Below are positions 2,096 through 7,393 of a stretch of DNA of 40,110 nt, in pieces (the first letter of the stretch is position 1; every line of letters begins with the position of its first letter). Under the pieces are notes generated by a model, which searched no databases, was not told the DNA's origin, and saw nothing but the letters and a program-made list of their open reading frames with translations. The position numbers were made by a program, and so were the translations under genes. The stretch comes from Crocinitomicaceae bacterium (lineage in GTDB: Bacteria > Bacteroidota > Bacteroidia > Flavobacteriales_D > Crocinitomicaceae): assembly GCA_022425625.1 (NCBI GenBank), contig JAKMFD010000161.1, positions 1 to 40,110 of the forward strand, written 5' to 3'.

Positions 2096-2103
2096 TATTT
2101 TTG
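2096..2103 (+). promoter_or_regulatory. Bacteroidota -7 promoter element for the M16 peptidase operon
   Basis: TATTTTTG matches the Bacteroidota -7 consensus TAnnTTTG and ends 18 nt before the ATG at 2122. No well-spaced -33 TTG was found. The element overlaps the alternative TTG start at 2101, which favours the ATG at 2122. Confidence 0.45.
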
Positions 2104-2121
2104 ATTCTCAAATTTTCAACT

Positions 2122-3447
2122 ATGAACAAAATATTATTGAGTTTTTCGTTCCTGTCAGTAATCAGCATTGTAATTGCACAACCAAGAATAGACTATACGG
2201 AATATGATCTAAAGAATGGTATGCACGTTATTCTGCACAAGGATAATTCTGCTCCCATAGTTACAACTGCGGTTATGTATCATGTTGGAGCAAAAGATGA
2301 AAACCCAGAAAGAACTGGATTTGCGCACTTTTTTGAGCATCTTTTATTCGAGGGTACTGAAAATATTCCGAGAGGTGAATGGTTTACCATTGTAAGCTCA
2401 AATGGAGGAAGTAATAATGCAAACACAACCTCAGACAGAACATACTATTACGAGGTATTCCCTTCAAACAGCTTAGAGCTAGGACTGTGGATGGAATCAG
2501 AACGTCTGATGCACCCCATAATCAATCAAATTGGTGTAGATACCCAAAACGAAGTAGTTAAGGAAGAAAAAAGAAGTAGAATCGATAATGCTCCCTACGG
2601 AGGCATTCAGTATGCAACTGCAACAAATAAGTATCTTTTTGATCAGCATCCATATAAAATGTCTGTCATTGGGGAAATGGAACACCTCGATGCTGCTACT
2701 CTTGAGGAATTCCAATCATTTAATAAAAAATATTATGTGCCGAACAATGCAGCGTTAGTCGTAGCCGGTGATATTGACATTGAAGCAACAAAAAAAATGA
2801 TTGAGGCTTATTTCGGACCTATTCCGAGAGGTGAAGAAATTGAAAGGAAAATGGTTGTTGAAGAACCGATTACTGAAACGAGAGTAGAAACGGAATATGA
2901 TTCGAACATTGAAATACCTGCCTTAGTATTGTGTTATAGAACACCTTCAATGAAAGATAGAGATGCATACGTACTTGAAATGATTTCTACTTATCTGAGT
3001 GACGGAAAAAGCTCAAAACTTTATAAGAATCTTGTTGATGATAACAAAAAAGCCTTGCAGGTTTTTGCCTTTAATAGAGGAATGGAAGACTACAGTGTAT
3101 ATAATATTATTGCTCTACCTCTTGGAGAAGTGGCCCTGGAAGAATTAACAACTGATATAGATGCTGAGATTCTCAAAGTACAAACAGACCTTATATCAGA
3201 AAGAGATTATCAAAAGCTCCAAAATAAATTTGAAAATACATTTGTAAATGCCAATTCAAGTGTTTCTGGTGTTGCCAATTCATTAGCAAGGTATTATATG
3301 TTGTATGGTGATATAAGCCTCATCAATACCGAAATAGATATCTTCCGATCGATTACAAGAGAAGAGATTAGAAAAGTGGCTAAAAAATATTTAAACCCTA
3401 ATCAAAGATTGATTTTAAACTATTTACCTGAATCGAGTAAAGAATAA
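2122..3447 (+). CDS. M16 family zinc metallopeptidase (catalytic subunit)
   Basis: Insulinase/mitochondrial-processing-peptidase-like protease of 441 residues. It carries the inverted zinc motif HFFEH (about residues 69-73 from the chosen ATG) in GFAHFFEHLLFEGTENIP. A glutamate-rich helix about 75 residues later (NEVVKEEKR) supplies the third zinc ligand. A signal peptide ending near VIAQ indicates export. The start at 2122 gives a proper signal peptide; a TTG at 2101 would add seven residues and overlap the promoter. The next gene, 16 nt downstream, encodes an M16 protein without the zinc motif, as in bacterial M16B heterodimers, where one subunit is catalytic and the other helps bind substrate. 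Confidence 0.93.
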   Translation: MNKILLSFSFLSVISIVIAQPRIDYTEYDLKNGMHVILHKDNSAPIVTTAVMYHVGAKDENPERTGFAHFFEHLLFEGTENIPRGEWFTIVSSNGGSNNANTTSDRTYYYEVFPSNSLELGLWMESERLMHPIINQIGVDTQNEVVKEEKRSRIDNAPYGGIQYATATNKYLFDQHPYKMSVIGEMEHLDAATLEEFQSFNKKYYVPNNAALVVAGDIDIEATKKMIEAYFGPIPRGEEIERKMVVEEPITETRVETEYDSNIEIPALVLCYRTPSMKDRDAYVLEMISTYLSDGKSSKLYKNLVDDNKKALQVFAFNRGMEDYSVYNIIALPLGEVALEELTTDIDAEILKVQTDLISERDYQKLQNKFENTFVNANSSVSGVANSLARYYMLYGDISLINTEIDIFRSITREEIRKVAKKYLNPNQRLILNYLPESSKE

Positions 3448-3463
3448 ATAAAACATATTTAAA

Positions 3464-5536
3464 ATGAAAAATAGCATATTACTTATCCTAACTATTTTAC
3501 TTGCTTCAGCAGGTAGCTATGCTCAAATTGACAGATCAAAGCAACCAGAACCGGGACCAGCTCCAAAAATAAATATGGAGCGCCCCATTGAATTCTCCTT
3601 GGACAATGGCTTGAACGTTCTAATTGTTGAAAACCATAAACTTCCTCGTGTGAGCATCAGTCTCTTTTTTGATAGAACACCTTTTTTAATGAAAGAAAAA
3701 GCAGGTGTTACCTCTCTGCTAGGTTCTATGCTTGGAAACGGAACACAAACTATATCAAAAGATGATTTTAACGAAGAAATTGATTTTCTTGGTGCAGATT
3801 TATCCTTTGGATTTGATGGAGGTTATGCAAGCTCATTATCAAAATATTTTGAGCGAATGTTGGAGCTATTAGCTGATGCGACAATGAACTCATTATTGAC
3901 TCCCGAAGAATTTGAAAAAGAAAAAGAGCGCTTATTAGAAGGACTTAAAAGTCAAGAGAAAAGTGTTGATGCCGTAGCAAGTATTGCTGGAGGAGCATTG
4001 GCCTACGGAAGGAATCATCCATATGGAGAATTTGAAAACGAAGCAACAATTAATAACGTAAGCTTTGAAGATGTTCAAGAATACTATAAAAACTTCTTTA
4101 ATCCAAAACAGGCATATCTTGTCATCATTGGAGACATTAATCCCGAAAAAGTAAAGCCTATCATCGAAAGTCGTTTTAATAGTTGGGAAAATGGATCAAT
4201 TACAGAAATCCCCATGCCTGACGCACAGAGCAACCCGAAAGCGCTAGAAATTAATTTCATAGATATGCCAAATGCGGTGCAATCAAATATTTCTTTAACA
4301 AGTAACGTCAGTCTAAAAATGAATGACTCCGATTATCACGCGGTCCTTATTGCGAACAAGATATTAGGTGGCGGTTTCAATAGCTACCTTAACATGAACT
4401 TAAGAGAGGAGCATGGTTATACGTATGGAGCAGGTTCTTCAGTTGGCGCGGATAAATATATAACAAGATTTAAAACAGGTGCTTCGGTAAGAAACGAAGT
4501 GACGGATAGCGCTGTTGTGCAAACGATTAAAGAGGTAAAAAGAATTCAAGAAAATCCAGTTGAGGAAGAGGCATTAGCGAATGCCAAAGCCAAATATGTA
4601 GGTGATTTTGTATTGGCCTTGGAAAGGCCGTCTACAATTGCCCAATATGCCATAAATATTAAAGCAAATAATTTACCTGCAGATTTCTATGCAGAATATT
4701 TAAAGAAAATAAACGCAGTTACTGTAGAGGATGTACAACGTGTTGCCAACAAATATTTCAATGCTGAAAATGCACGATTCATAGTGGTTGGAAAAGGAAG
4801 CGACGTTATTGAAAATCTTGAAAAAACCGGTATTCCAATCAATTACTTCGACAGAGAAGCGAATGCTGTTGAAAAGCCAGAATTCCAAAAACCCATCCCT
4901 GCTGGTGTTACCGCGCAATCGATAATTTTAGACTACATTGATGCCATTGGAGGTTCAAAATCGCTTTCAGGTGTTAAAACAATACTTACGAATGTTGATA
5001 TCTCTATTCAAGGTGCCCCATTTAAACCAAGTGGCGTAATTAAGACAATGTCCCCGAATAAAGAGTCCATGGAGATGTCAGTTGAAGGGATGGGTACAAT
5101 TATGAAACAAAAGTTTGACGGTAAAACTGGATATGCTGAACAACAAGGAAGAAAAACAGAAATGACAGCCGATGAAATCGCAGAAAAGCAGAAAGAAAAA
5201 GGATTGTTCCCAGAGACCTACCTCTCTGAAGATGCCGTTTCGTTAGTAAGTTTAATTTCCGTTAATGGATCAGATGCCTATAAAATAAAGGTAGCTGGTA
5301 AAAATGATTCTTACAGATATTATGACGCAACCAGTTTCATGCTGATTCGAACGGAGGTTTCACAAGAAGCTCGAGGTCAAAAAATAACTCAGATAACAGA
5401 TATCTCTGATTATAGATCCGTAAATGGAATTCAAATGCCTCACAAAAAAGTAATAACGGCAGGACCACAAATCATAACCTTCGATGCATCAGAAATAAAA
5501 ATAAACGAAGGCGTTAGTAAAAAAGACTTTAAATAA
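3464..5536 (+). CDS. M16 family peptidase-like protein, non-catalytic type, with C-terminal LolA-like region
   Basis: 690 residues with a signal peptide (ending SYAQ). Two M16 domains occupy about residues 35-460. The HxxEH position is replaced (KEKAGVTSLLGSMLGNG), so zinc hydrolysis is not expected. The conserved Arg/Tyr substrate-binding segment is present as NLREEHGYTYGAGSS. Residues about 485-690 (starting DYIDAIGGSKSL) resemble the single-sheet lipoprotein-carrier (LolA-like) regions often found in Bacteroidota exported proteins. That assignment is by pattern only. It is probably the partner of the catalytic M16 protein encoded 16 nt upstream. A strong hairpin terminator follows. Confidence 0.88.
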   Translation: MKNSILLILTILLASAGSYAQIDRSKQPEPGPAPKINMERPIEFSLDNGLNVLIVENHKLPRVSISLFFDRTPFLMKEKAGVTSLLGSMLGNGTQTISKDDFNEEIDFLGADLSFGFDGGYASSLSKYFERMLELLADATMNSLLTPEEFEKEKERLLEGLKSQEKSVDAVASIAGGALAYGRNHPYGEFENEATINNVSFEDVQEYYKNFFNPKQAYLVIIGDINPEKVKPIIESRFNSWENGSITEIPMPDAQSNPKALEINFIDMPNAVQSNISLTSNVSLKMNDSDYHAVLIANKILGGGFNSYLNMNLREEHGYTYGAGSSVGADKYITRFKTGASVRNEVTDSAVVQTIKEVKRIQENPVEEEALANAKAKYVGDFVLALERPSTIAQYAINIKANNLPADFYAEYLKKINAVTVEDVQRVANKYFNAENARFIVVGKGSDVIENLEKTGIPINYFDREANAVEKPEFQKPIPAGVTAQSIILDYIDAIGGSKSLSGVKTILTNVDISIQGAPFKPSGVIKTMSPNKESMEMSVEGMGTIMKQKFDGKTGYAEQQGRKTEMTADEIAEKQKEKGLFPETYLSEDAVSLVSLISVNGSDAYKIKVAGKNDSYRYYDATSFMLIRTEVSQEARGQKITQITDISDYRSVNGIQMPHKKVITAGPQIITFDASEIKINEGVSKKDFK

Positions 5537-5636: not shown

Positions 5637-6752
5637 ATGAGTGACTTTGTTGTTTCAGCAAGAAAATACCGCCCGCAGACTTTCGATACCGTAGTCGGTC
5701 AAAAGTCCATTACAGGCACACTCAAAAACGCCATTAAAAAAGAACATTTAGCACAAGCTTTTCTTTTCTGCGGTTCGCGAGGCGTTGGCAAAACAACAAC
5801 TGCAAGAATTCTAGCGAAGACGATAAACTGCACACAAAGAAGTGAAAATACAGAGGCCTGCGATAAGTGCGACTCGTGTGAAAGTTTTAATTCGGGGGCT
5901 TCACTAAATGTTTATGAACTAGACGCAGCCTCAAACAATTCAGTTGAGGACATAAGAGGTCTTATAGATCAGGTCCGTATTGCTCCTCAGCTAGGAGATT
6001 TTAAGGTCTATATTATTGACGAAGTTCACATGCTTTCAACGAATGCATTTAATGCATTTTTGAAAACTTTAGAAGAACCTCCGAAGCATGCTATTTTTAT
6101 TTTAGCGACTACAGAAAAACATAAAATTATTCCTACTATTTTATCGAGATGCCAAATCTTTGATTTTTCTCGTATCACAGTTAAAGACATTACCGATCAT
6201 TTAGCTGAAATTTCAAAAAAGGAAAAAGTTAAAGCAGAGATTGAAGCCCTTCACCTTATTGCAATGAAAGCAGATGGAGCGCTGAGAGACGCCTTATCTG
6301 TTTTTGATCAAATGGTCACTTTTTCAGGGAATGAACTAACATACAATCAAGTCATAGAAAATCTTCATATTCTTGATTATGATTATTTTTTCAAATTTGT
6401 CGACTTCACTGAAAAAGAGGATATTCCAGGCTCTTTGTTACTCTTCAACGAAATCCTTGAGAAAGGTTTTGACGCCCATAATTTCTTGTCTGGATTGTCG
6501 TCACACTATAGGAATTTATTAGTCTGTAAAGACGATCGATCTACGGCTTTGTTAGAAGTTCCTGAACAGACACAAAAAAGATATGTTGAGCAATCAAAAG
6601 GGATACCTCACCAAACTATTACAAGAGCACTTTACGCATTAAGTAAAGCCGACAATAACTATAAATCTTCAAAAAACCAAAGGCTGCTCGTTGAGGTTGC
6701 ATTAATGGAGCTCTGTTCACTCAAACAAGAGCAAGAAAAAAAAAAGCCCTAA
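5637..6752 (+). CDS. dnaX: DnaX short (gamma-like) product of the zero frame
   Basis: Without frameshifting, translation ends at TAA 6750-6752 and gives 371 residues ending EQEKKKP. The product keeps the complete AAA+ ATPase module and the collar-forming helical region (to the segment around LVEVALMELCSL). It lacks the C-terminal tau-specific region. It would therefore resemble gamma: able to form a clamp loader but lacking the part that in E. coli tau binds polymerase and DnaB. Whether it accumulates in the cell is not shown by sequence. Confidence 0.6.
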   Translation: MSDFVVSARKYRPQTFDTVVGQKSITGTLKNAIKKEHLAQAFLFCGSRGVGKTTTARILAKTINCTQRSENTEACDKCDSCESFNSGASLNVYELDAASNNSVEDIRGLIDQVRIAPQLGDFKVYIIDEVHMLSTNAFNAFLKTLEEPPKHAIFILATTEKHKIIPTILSRCQIFDFSRITVKDITDHLAEISKKEKVKAEIEALHLIAMKADGALRDALSVFDQMVTFSGNELTYNQVIENLHILDYDYFFKFVDFTEKEDIPGSLLLFNEILEKGFDAHNFLSGLSSHYRNLLVCKDDRSTALLEVPEQTQKRYVEQSKGIPHQTITRALYALSKADNNYKSSKNQRLLVEVALMELCSLKQEQEKKKP

Positions 6753-7393
6753 CGGATCGCATTGACTTTTTACCCTTTCCCGAAAAATCACTGCGTAAAG
6801 AAAAAAACAAATCAACACCGAAACAAGAGCAAAAATCAGTCAATATTGCGTCAGTTAAAACAGTTGATATAAAGATTGATACCCAAAAAAAGAAAACTGA
6901 AAATCAGCCTCTTCCAATTCCAAAAATTGTCAAAAAATCTGAAAGCCGCCTTTCTATAAAGGATATGCTAAAAAGAGAAGAGGAGCTAAAAAACAAACCT
7001 ACTGATGAAAATCTTCCTGAAGAAAAATATACTGCTGATAGACTTGTAAGAGTCTGGAGACAATACGCATTTCAGGTCAAGGATGAAGGTCAAGAAACTT
7101 TCTATAATGCATTGGTTAAAAGAGATCCATTAATTGAAAAGAACGATGTACTAAAATTATTTGTAGAAAATCAAATTCAAGTGGACTATATTAAACCTCT
7201 GCTAAATAAACTTATTTCCTTTATAAGAAAAAGCCTGCAAAATTATAATATTACCATTGAAATTGAGCTGACTGAAAACCCTGTGGAAGATATAAAACTA
7301 ATGCACGGAAAGGACAAGTTCAAGGCAATGGCAAAAAAGAATCCAAACCTGAATACTTTGAAAAACTTATTCAATTTAGACATTGAATTTTGA
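5637..7393 (+). CDS. dnaX: DNA polymerase III subunits gamma/tau, long form read through a -1 frameshift
   Basis: Clamp-loader ATPase of the replisome. The zero-frame N-terminus has Walker A GSRGVGKT (residues 46-53), a four-Cys zinc module (C65, C75, C78, C81), Walker B IIDEVH (126-131), sensor ATTE and the SRC arginine motif (170-172). At 6740-6746 the tract reads A AAA AAG in slippery phase, and two codons later the zero frame stops. A -1 shift gives an uninterrupted frame from 6746 to the TGA at 7391-7393. It includes a Lys-rich linker and a conserved C-terminal domain ending DKFKAMAKKNPNLNTLKNLF, typical of Bacteroidota DnaX. The full tau-like product would be about 585 residues. The alternative is a one-base homopolymer error hiding a single continuous frame. 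Confidence 0.9.
6736..6752 (+). other. Probable programmed -1 frameshift / slippage site in dnaX
   Basis: Ten consecutive As (6736-6745) followed by G contain the heptamer A AAA AAG, phased so that the last two zero-frame codons are AAA and AAG. This is the heptamer used in E. coli dnaX. The zero-frame stop TAA lies at 6750-6752. I see no strong downstream stem-loop and no well-placed Shine-Dalgarno-like stimulator. RNA-polymerase slippage on A10, as known for Thermus dnaX, is therefore as likely as ribosomal slippage. Confidence 0.75.

Follow-up and report, generated by a model that had tools for sequence, protein, structure and literature searches.

The window, i.e., the whole stretch of 40,110 nucleotides of Crocinitomicaceae DNA that was analyzed, is one contig of a 2.3-Mb assembly in 196 contigs and carries a dnaX gene that is split into two reading frames (Table 1). 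The zero frame holds the clamp-loader AAA+ domains and domain III, runs just past a tract of ten adenines, which is followed by a G at 6746, and closes with the residues QEKKKP in front of the stop codon TAA. The -1 frame, read from 6743, meets its first stop with the TGA at 7391-7393. This stop overlaps the TTG start codon of the next ORF (TTGA, 7390-7393), which by eye is AMP-binding ligase-like, and the two ORFs directly before dnaX (2101-3447 and 3464-5536) resemble, also by eye, M16-type peptidases.

Table 1. Features of the split dnaX locus in the window and the basis of their assignment
Feature	Coordinates	Strand	Basis
dnaX zero frame, gamma, 371 aa	5637..6752	+	Pfam PF13177, PF22608 and PF12169; TIGR02397
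Predicted nascent-RNA hairpin 5' of A10	6710..6732	+	fold of 34 nt, -7.7 kcal/mol
Putative A10 slippage tract	6736..6745	+	A≥9 at the same place in 249/266 order loci
Zero-frame TAA, ending gamma on unslipped mRNA	6750..6752	+	sequence read
-1 frame, linker and tau C-terminal part	6743..7393	+	open frame; NF011531 model positions 420-613

Coding content and predicted products

That the split gene is dnaX had been proposed in an earlier reading made from the letters of the DNA alone (referred to as the sequence-only reading), and this is borne out by the Pfam matches, by TIGR02397 (435 bits against gamma, cut-off 250), by a phmmer comparison of gamma with the E. coli gamma/tau chains (1.5e-65) and by the NCBIfam model NF011531 (PRK14971), which both halves match in order. 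The N half covers model positions 1-370 of 614 (3.1e-200) and the C half gives 8.2e-20; both bit scores lie below the curated whole-protein cut-off of 685, as each query represents a half protein only. The same reading had described A10-G, the zero-frame TAA, a heptamer A_AAA_AAG at 6740-6746 in phase for a -1 shift and a -1 frame that leads without interruption into a conserved C-terminal part, and all of this was confirmed on the sequence.

The computed mass of gamma is 41.9 kDa. An mRNA with eleven adenines in the run would encode tau with 585 aa and 67.1 kDa and an mRNA with eight adenines tau with 584 aa, while mRNAs with nine, ten, twelve or thirteen adenines give short products of 375, 371, 376 and 372 aa. 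DnaX forms of approximately 41 and 65 kDa had been anticipated. As was also anticipated, the roles of the frames are reversed compared to E. coli, i.e., the zero frame is short and yields gamma and the shifted frame is long and leads to tau. For the last 135 aa of the tau C-terminal part, the AlphaFold model has a mean pLDDT of 84.8 and a KH-like fold. Its best structural match is DnaA domain I (Z 8.7, rmsd 3.3, 79 aligned residues), which is a likeness of fold in a predicted model and says nothing on binding of the alpha subunit; a tau structure is absent among the structural matches listed for this model, and a Foldseek search of the tau C-terminal part against the PDB returned no match at E≤0.001.

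Within the 40-kb window, the A10 is the sole run of A or T longer than eight, and A8 is rarer than in shuffled sequences (12 matches vs. a mean of 30). The 2.3-Mb assembly contains 15 separate runs of A≥10 and that in dnaX is the only one to join two long ORFs in different frames. Two further ORFs of the same genome carry such a run in frame, a NUDIX-like ORF with A11 (L360) and an ORF perhaps encoding a glycosyltransferase with A10 and a weak predicted hairpin before it (L363; -2.8 kcal/mol), both assigned by eye; these are possible further slippage genes.

Conservation of the A-run and variation of the tau frame

At least 78 of the 86 genomes in the genus, at least 226 of the 240 in the family and at least 239 of the 245 in an order sample with at least 90% completeness contain DnaX. 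The DNA was read at 269 order dnaX loci, a subset of those found; as the sequence of three stops short of the site, 266 could be evaluated. Comparison with the dnaX genes of relatives, which the sequence-only reading had suggested, revealed that the A-tract is conserved (Table 1), with A10 in 216 loci, A11 in 28, A9 or A12-A14 in five and a shorter run in 17. In the genus of the window 64 of the 66 loci read keep the run and have tau in the -1 frame. The split looks like a device for making gamma and tau, as in the earlier view. The remaining two are G049, with A10 and a -1 frame closing after 19 codons, and G053, with A14 and tau in frame 0. An early closure of the -1 frame after an A10 is seen at L012 (the G049 locus) and after 74 codons at L109 (G233), representing either a further break or an assembly error, and L169 (G150) has one TAA within its DnaX N-part match.

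In the family, A≥9 is present in 189 of 206 loci, with tau in -1 in 184, in frame 0 in three (A11, A11, A14), in +1 in one (A9) and unclear in one. These counts bear on the possibility that the split results from a homopolymer error in sequencing or assembly, the true run being A11 or A8 and dnaX one continuous frame, which the sequence-only reading had put forward as the main alternative. A-runs are error-prone and the assembly consists of many contigs, and the four family loci with other frames (G091, G173, G208 and G053, with A9, A11, A11 and A14) could be such assembly errors or could be fresh flips. However, tau lies in -1 in 184 of the 206 family loci read, 161 of them with A10 and 23 with A11-A13, and these include the single-contig assemblies G133, G135 and G146. 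Furthermore, the A11 loci keep tau in -1 because the G after the run is replaced by A rather than an A being inserted. An error at this site is thus already refuted by the relatives and is given next to no credence for the window.

Elsewhere in the order the run is kept and the frame is not. All 60 loci of the other eleven families of the order have A≥9, with tau in frame 0 in 27, in -1 in 18, in +1 in 14 and unclear in one. Among the named Bacteroidia, represented by the best 80 of 594 candidates and 73 loci after removal of duplicates, 59 have A≥9 and 14 do not; the 59 have tau in frame 0 in 47 cases, in -1 in nine, in +1 in one and unclear in two. Of 30 genomes that represent 29 families in the other classes of the phylum, 12 have A≥9, and tau is in -1 in five of these. 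All unique loci with A≥9 in which the frame of tau could be read were pooled, resulting in a set of 302, with tau in -1 in 209, in frame 0 in 77 and in +1 in 16. In this set the run occurs in all three codon phases, with phase 1 dominant, and it is followed by G in 132, by T in 93 and by C in 77 loci.

On a FastTree phylogeny of the DnaX N part (335 rows) the tau frame switched at least 25 times (n=299) and at least 20 times among exact-A10 loci (n=255), and presence of the run changed, by loss or gain, at least nine times. Two Aquimarina isolates illustrate a switch at constant run length, both having A10 but tau in -1 in L339 and in frame 0 in L345. In 283 of the 302 loci, each of the two unused frames meets a stop no more than 10 codons from the run start, compared to 32% both for random codons in these genes and for the tau linker; as the loci share ancestry, comparisons with controls are not independent tests. 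Elsewhere in the 302 dnaX genes, only 11 other runs of A≥9 were found. Together, this fits a selection that would conserve the A-run but not the frame of tau. An uninterrupted dnaX in relatives, which the sequence-only reading had named as evidence against its proposal, indeed exists in many genomes, yet the A-run is kept there, so slippage is not refuted by them.

A predicted hairpin in front of the run

In the window, the stem of the hairpin is predicted to be formed by 6710-6717 with 6724-6726 and 6728-6732, with a loop at 6718-6723, a bulge at 6727 and the spacer AAG (6733-6735) between the stem and the run. The 24 nt before the run fold with -3.1 kcal/mol, the strongest value for the 15 A≥10 sites of the genome (next -2.8 and -2.7). 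The sequence-only reading had seen no strong hairpin, which is true of the sequence downstream of the run in the window (z -0.76) but not of that upstream, where the predicted hairpin lies close against the run. Among relatives, the folding energy of the 24 nt before the run is -5.02 kcal/mol in the family (186 loci), -5.26 in the order (59) and -5.02 in the named set (57), compared to -1.34, -1.85 and -1.93 kcal/mol in control windows of the same genes and -1.75, -1.28 and -1.71 kcal/mol after the run. Compared to dinucleotide-shuffled sequences, the 30 nt preceding the run show a mean z of -1.45 in the family (80 loci sampled), -1.67 in the order and -1.30 in the named set; control windows give 0.22, -0.14 and -0.07 and the sequence downstream of the run -0.10, -0.58 and -0.68, respectively. 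The distance between the 3' arm and the run is 0-3 nt in 173 of 186 family loci, 48 of 59 order loci and 38 of the 54 named loci that fold.

If a hairpin is defined by an energy of ≤-5 kcal and a gap of ≤4, it is present before the run in 128/186 family, 39/59 order and 25/57 named loci, and 58/186, 20/59 and 32/57 fail this rule. The same rule is satisfied at 286/3720, 183/1180 and 190/1140 random anchors (8-17%) and at 40/522, 10/126 and 16/144 runs of A6-A8 in the same genes for family, order and named set, respectively. Sorted by tau frame, it applies to 135/209 loci with tau in -1, 41/77 with tau in frame 0 and 16/16 with tau in +1.

The family stem lies at the same place as that of the window in a slightly different register, and its six-pair register has 83% canonical pairs vs. 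29-52% when slid. The pair at -17/-8, which combines two third-codon positions, is canonical in 68% of the family loci vs. 40% expected (the largest value of 500 shuffles being 49%), the largest excess of canonical pairs among all pairs in the 42 nt. On the tree, this pair underwent 22 double changes, of which 17 end canonical and 14 lead from one canonical pair to another, compared to 0-2 canonical-to-canonical double changes in seven other, unpaired control pairs. The remaining pairs contribute little: -20/-5, -21/-4 and -22/-3 show almost no covariation, with -22/-3 weak, -18/-7 and -19/-6 hardly vary, and the window itself has A.A at the family's -17/-8 pair. The pair (-16,-3), ranked second for covariation, was discarded as it lies outside the stem register and has two canonical double changes. 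A search of the window against Rfam identified no family above the gathering score; at 6600-6950 it returned five sub-threshold matches at chance level, none of them a dnaX element.

Two codons upstream of the GAA that belongs to the run, Glu is encoded by GAG in 174 and by GAA in 12 of 189 family loci, although GAG makes up 26% of the Glu codons across the same family genes, a preference that we attribute to its position in the hairpin's 3' arm. The GAG/GGAG before the run was initially taken as a Shine-Dalgarno (SD) stimulator; it coincides with the 3' arm and the two readings are not fully separable. SD-like words of 4 nt precede the run in 65/189 family, 34/60 order and 24/59 named loci vs. 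9-14% in controls, with no such excess in the run-bearing loci of other classes (2/12).

Mechanism, related systems and loss of the element

The mechanism under which the sequence-only reading had filed the locus is a programmed -1 ribosomal frameshift at A_AAA_AAG as in E. coli dnaX, with the roles of the products reversed. The heptamer has the right phase in the window, and among heptamers of this type A_AAA_AAG is described as the one that shifts most readily in E. coli (PMC5009743). Furthermore, as the G-rich stretch before the run is SD-like and enriched in relatives, it may act as a ribosomal stimulator, and a share of the product could be ribosomal; forms with A11 and AAA, or with AAT or AAC, might also shift weakly. 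However, G follows the run in just 99 of the 209 loci with tau in -1 (T in 72, C in 38), the 16 loci that have tau in +1 cannot obtain it by a -1 step, and ten adenines are conserved where seven suffice. The missing stem-loop downstream in the window has its counterpart in relatives, which show no excess of folding after the run and weak shuffle z-scores of -0.6 to -0.7 outside the family, and an upstream hairpin was reported to weaken -1 shifting at A6G on 70S ribosomes (PMC6321510). For Flavobacterium johnsoniae, low prfB frameshifting and a rare use of SD sequences in initiation were described (PMC12421855). With the A10 kept whether G, T or C comes next and tau found in -1, 0 and +1, a ribosomal shift lacks support as the main mechanism and appears unlikely.

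Polymerase slippage, which the sequence-only reading had mentioned as a serious alternative, is now the favored mechanism, and hairpin-assisted slippage would fit the data of the relatives better than frameshifting at A_AAA_AAG. Slippage was reported at nine A/T, the RNA-DNA hybrid measuring 9-10 bp (PMC5009743), and the A10 has the length of this hybrid. While the run is copied, the hybrid would consist of A:T pairs only and could slide, and an RNA hairpin folding just behind it would aid the sliding. Thereby, mRNAs with 10, 9, 12 or 13 adenines would stop a few codons past the run and give gamma (371-376 aa), whereas mRNAs with 11 or 8 adenines would be read on to tau (584-585 aa). As slippage would supply all three frames, the frame of the DNA would be of little matter, so that relatives can carry tau in -1, 0 or +1. 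In 249 of the 266 order loci the tract is at least nine adenines long, its length being conserved, and the frame step among relatives goes in more than one direction. Stimulation of polymerase slippage by a 5' stem-loop was described for an IS element (PMC5009743), and runs of A10-A11 in other genes cause slippage of bacterial polymerases (PMC6260861). It is therefore very likely, judging from sequence comparison, that the dnaX gene of the window has a built-in element for hairpin-assisted slippage of RNA polymerase; that slippage occurs, at what rate and that both gamma and tau are made from the gene is what we infer from this element.

Several related systems have been described. Antonov et al. 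(2013) reported two-ORF dnaX in 17 genes of 12 genera, Chloroherpeton and Chlorobium among those named, all with a -1 step; nine of the 17 have ten adenines and transcriptional slippage was proposed (PMC3711429). These genes share with the window the -1 step, a zero frame that holds gamma, a poly-A at the step and the proposed recoding to tau, but all are -1, whereas the Bacteroidia analyzed here also have frames 0 and +1 and a predicted hairpin before the run. In Thermus thermophilus, polymerase slippage on an A-run gives gamma and tau, as proposed here, and the two remaining frames soon meet a stop past the run, but the run is A9, tau is in the zero frame and a 5' hairpin is unmentioned in the descriptions consulted (PMC5009743, PMC1088944). 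The Roseiflexus IS element (Penno et al., 2015) has a stem-loop directly 5' of its slippage motif as predicted here, although that motif is T5C5 with a one-base deletion in a transposase gene, compared to A10 in a replication gene (PMC5009743). E. coli dnaX shares the gene, the two kinds of product and A_AAA_AAG, but tau is made in the zero frame and gamma by the shift, and an SD-like element lies upstream and a stem-loop downstream (PMC5009743, PMC3711429). In dnaX of Blochmannia, an A-run also contains a frame break that slippage may correct, yet this is an endosymbiont indel of two species and lies within the part unique to tau rather than where gamma ends (PMC3017870).

The element was lost in one part of the family. 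Sixteen family loci have no run; they belong to the genera g7, g9, g12, g13 and g19 (part of L182-L192, L052-L056 and L069), and the clade of their common ancestor has 17 leaves, including one A10 genome (g20), with a support of 99. In these 16 loci the hairpin is absent (mean -1.18 vs. -2.17 in the control), there is no excess of folding before or after the junction and no slippery heptamer is common to them, A_AAA_AAG occurring in L054, L183 and L189. Their dnaX is still split and ORF2 begins over the stop of ORF1, with the junctions ATGA, TAATG, GTGATC and mostly ATCTTAA or similar. The first codon of ORF2 is ATG in L190 and L069 and GTG in L053. The remaining 13 loci have ATC at this position; in seven of them ORF2 contains a further ATG, GTG or TTG after 9-20 codons, and in six there is none within 35 codons. 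These loci are read as candidates for gene fission, with ORF2 of some perhaps started at AUC. Such a fission, with gamma and the tau C-terminal part as separately started proteins, is conceivable for the window by analogy with this clade. In the window, however, run and hairpin are intact, the first ATG of the -1 frame lies at 6965, about 74 codons in, and conservation of the frame extends from this ATG back to the run, which makes separate starts there most improbable.

For the Bacteroidia, and perhaps for neighboring classes, we consider a broader reading of the comparisons reasonably probable, in which the hairpin and A10 act as a frame randomizer. The element would be under selection and the frame would have drifted between -1, 0 and +1 at least 20 times with function kept, and loss of the element, as in the one Crocinitomicaceae clade, would have left two overlapping genes, some of them perhaps started at AUC. 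Two-ORF dnaX with A10 and the proposal of slippage are already in print (PMC3711429), as is the notion that one base can reverse the gamma and tau roles (PMC5009743). In the open-licence literature, no report was found of a hairpin 5' of the dnaX run, of Bacteroidia dnaX genes in which this run is combined with tau in frame 0 or +1, or of a run-less dnaX clade. If the slippage reading is true, an essential replication gene has a DNA reading frame that is evolutionarily free and the ratio of gamma to tau is set by RNA polymerase and not by the ribosome, which would also explain the short dnaX reported by gene callers in many Bacteroidia. The three frames, the presence or loss of the run and the strong or weak hairpins thereby constitute a natural series for testing slippage driven by nascent hairpins.
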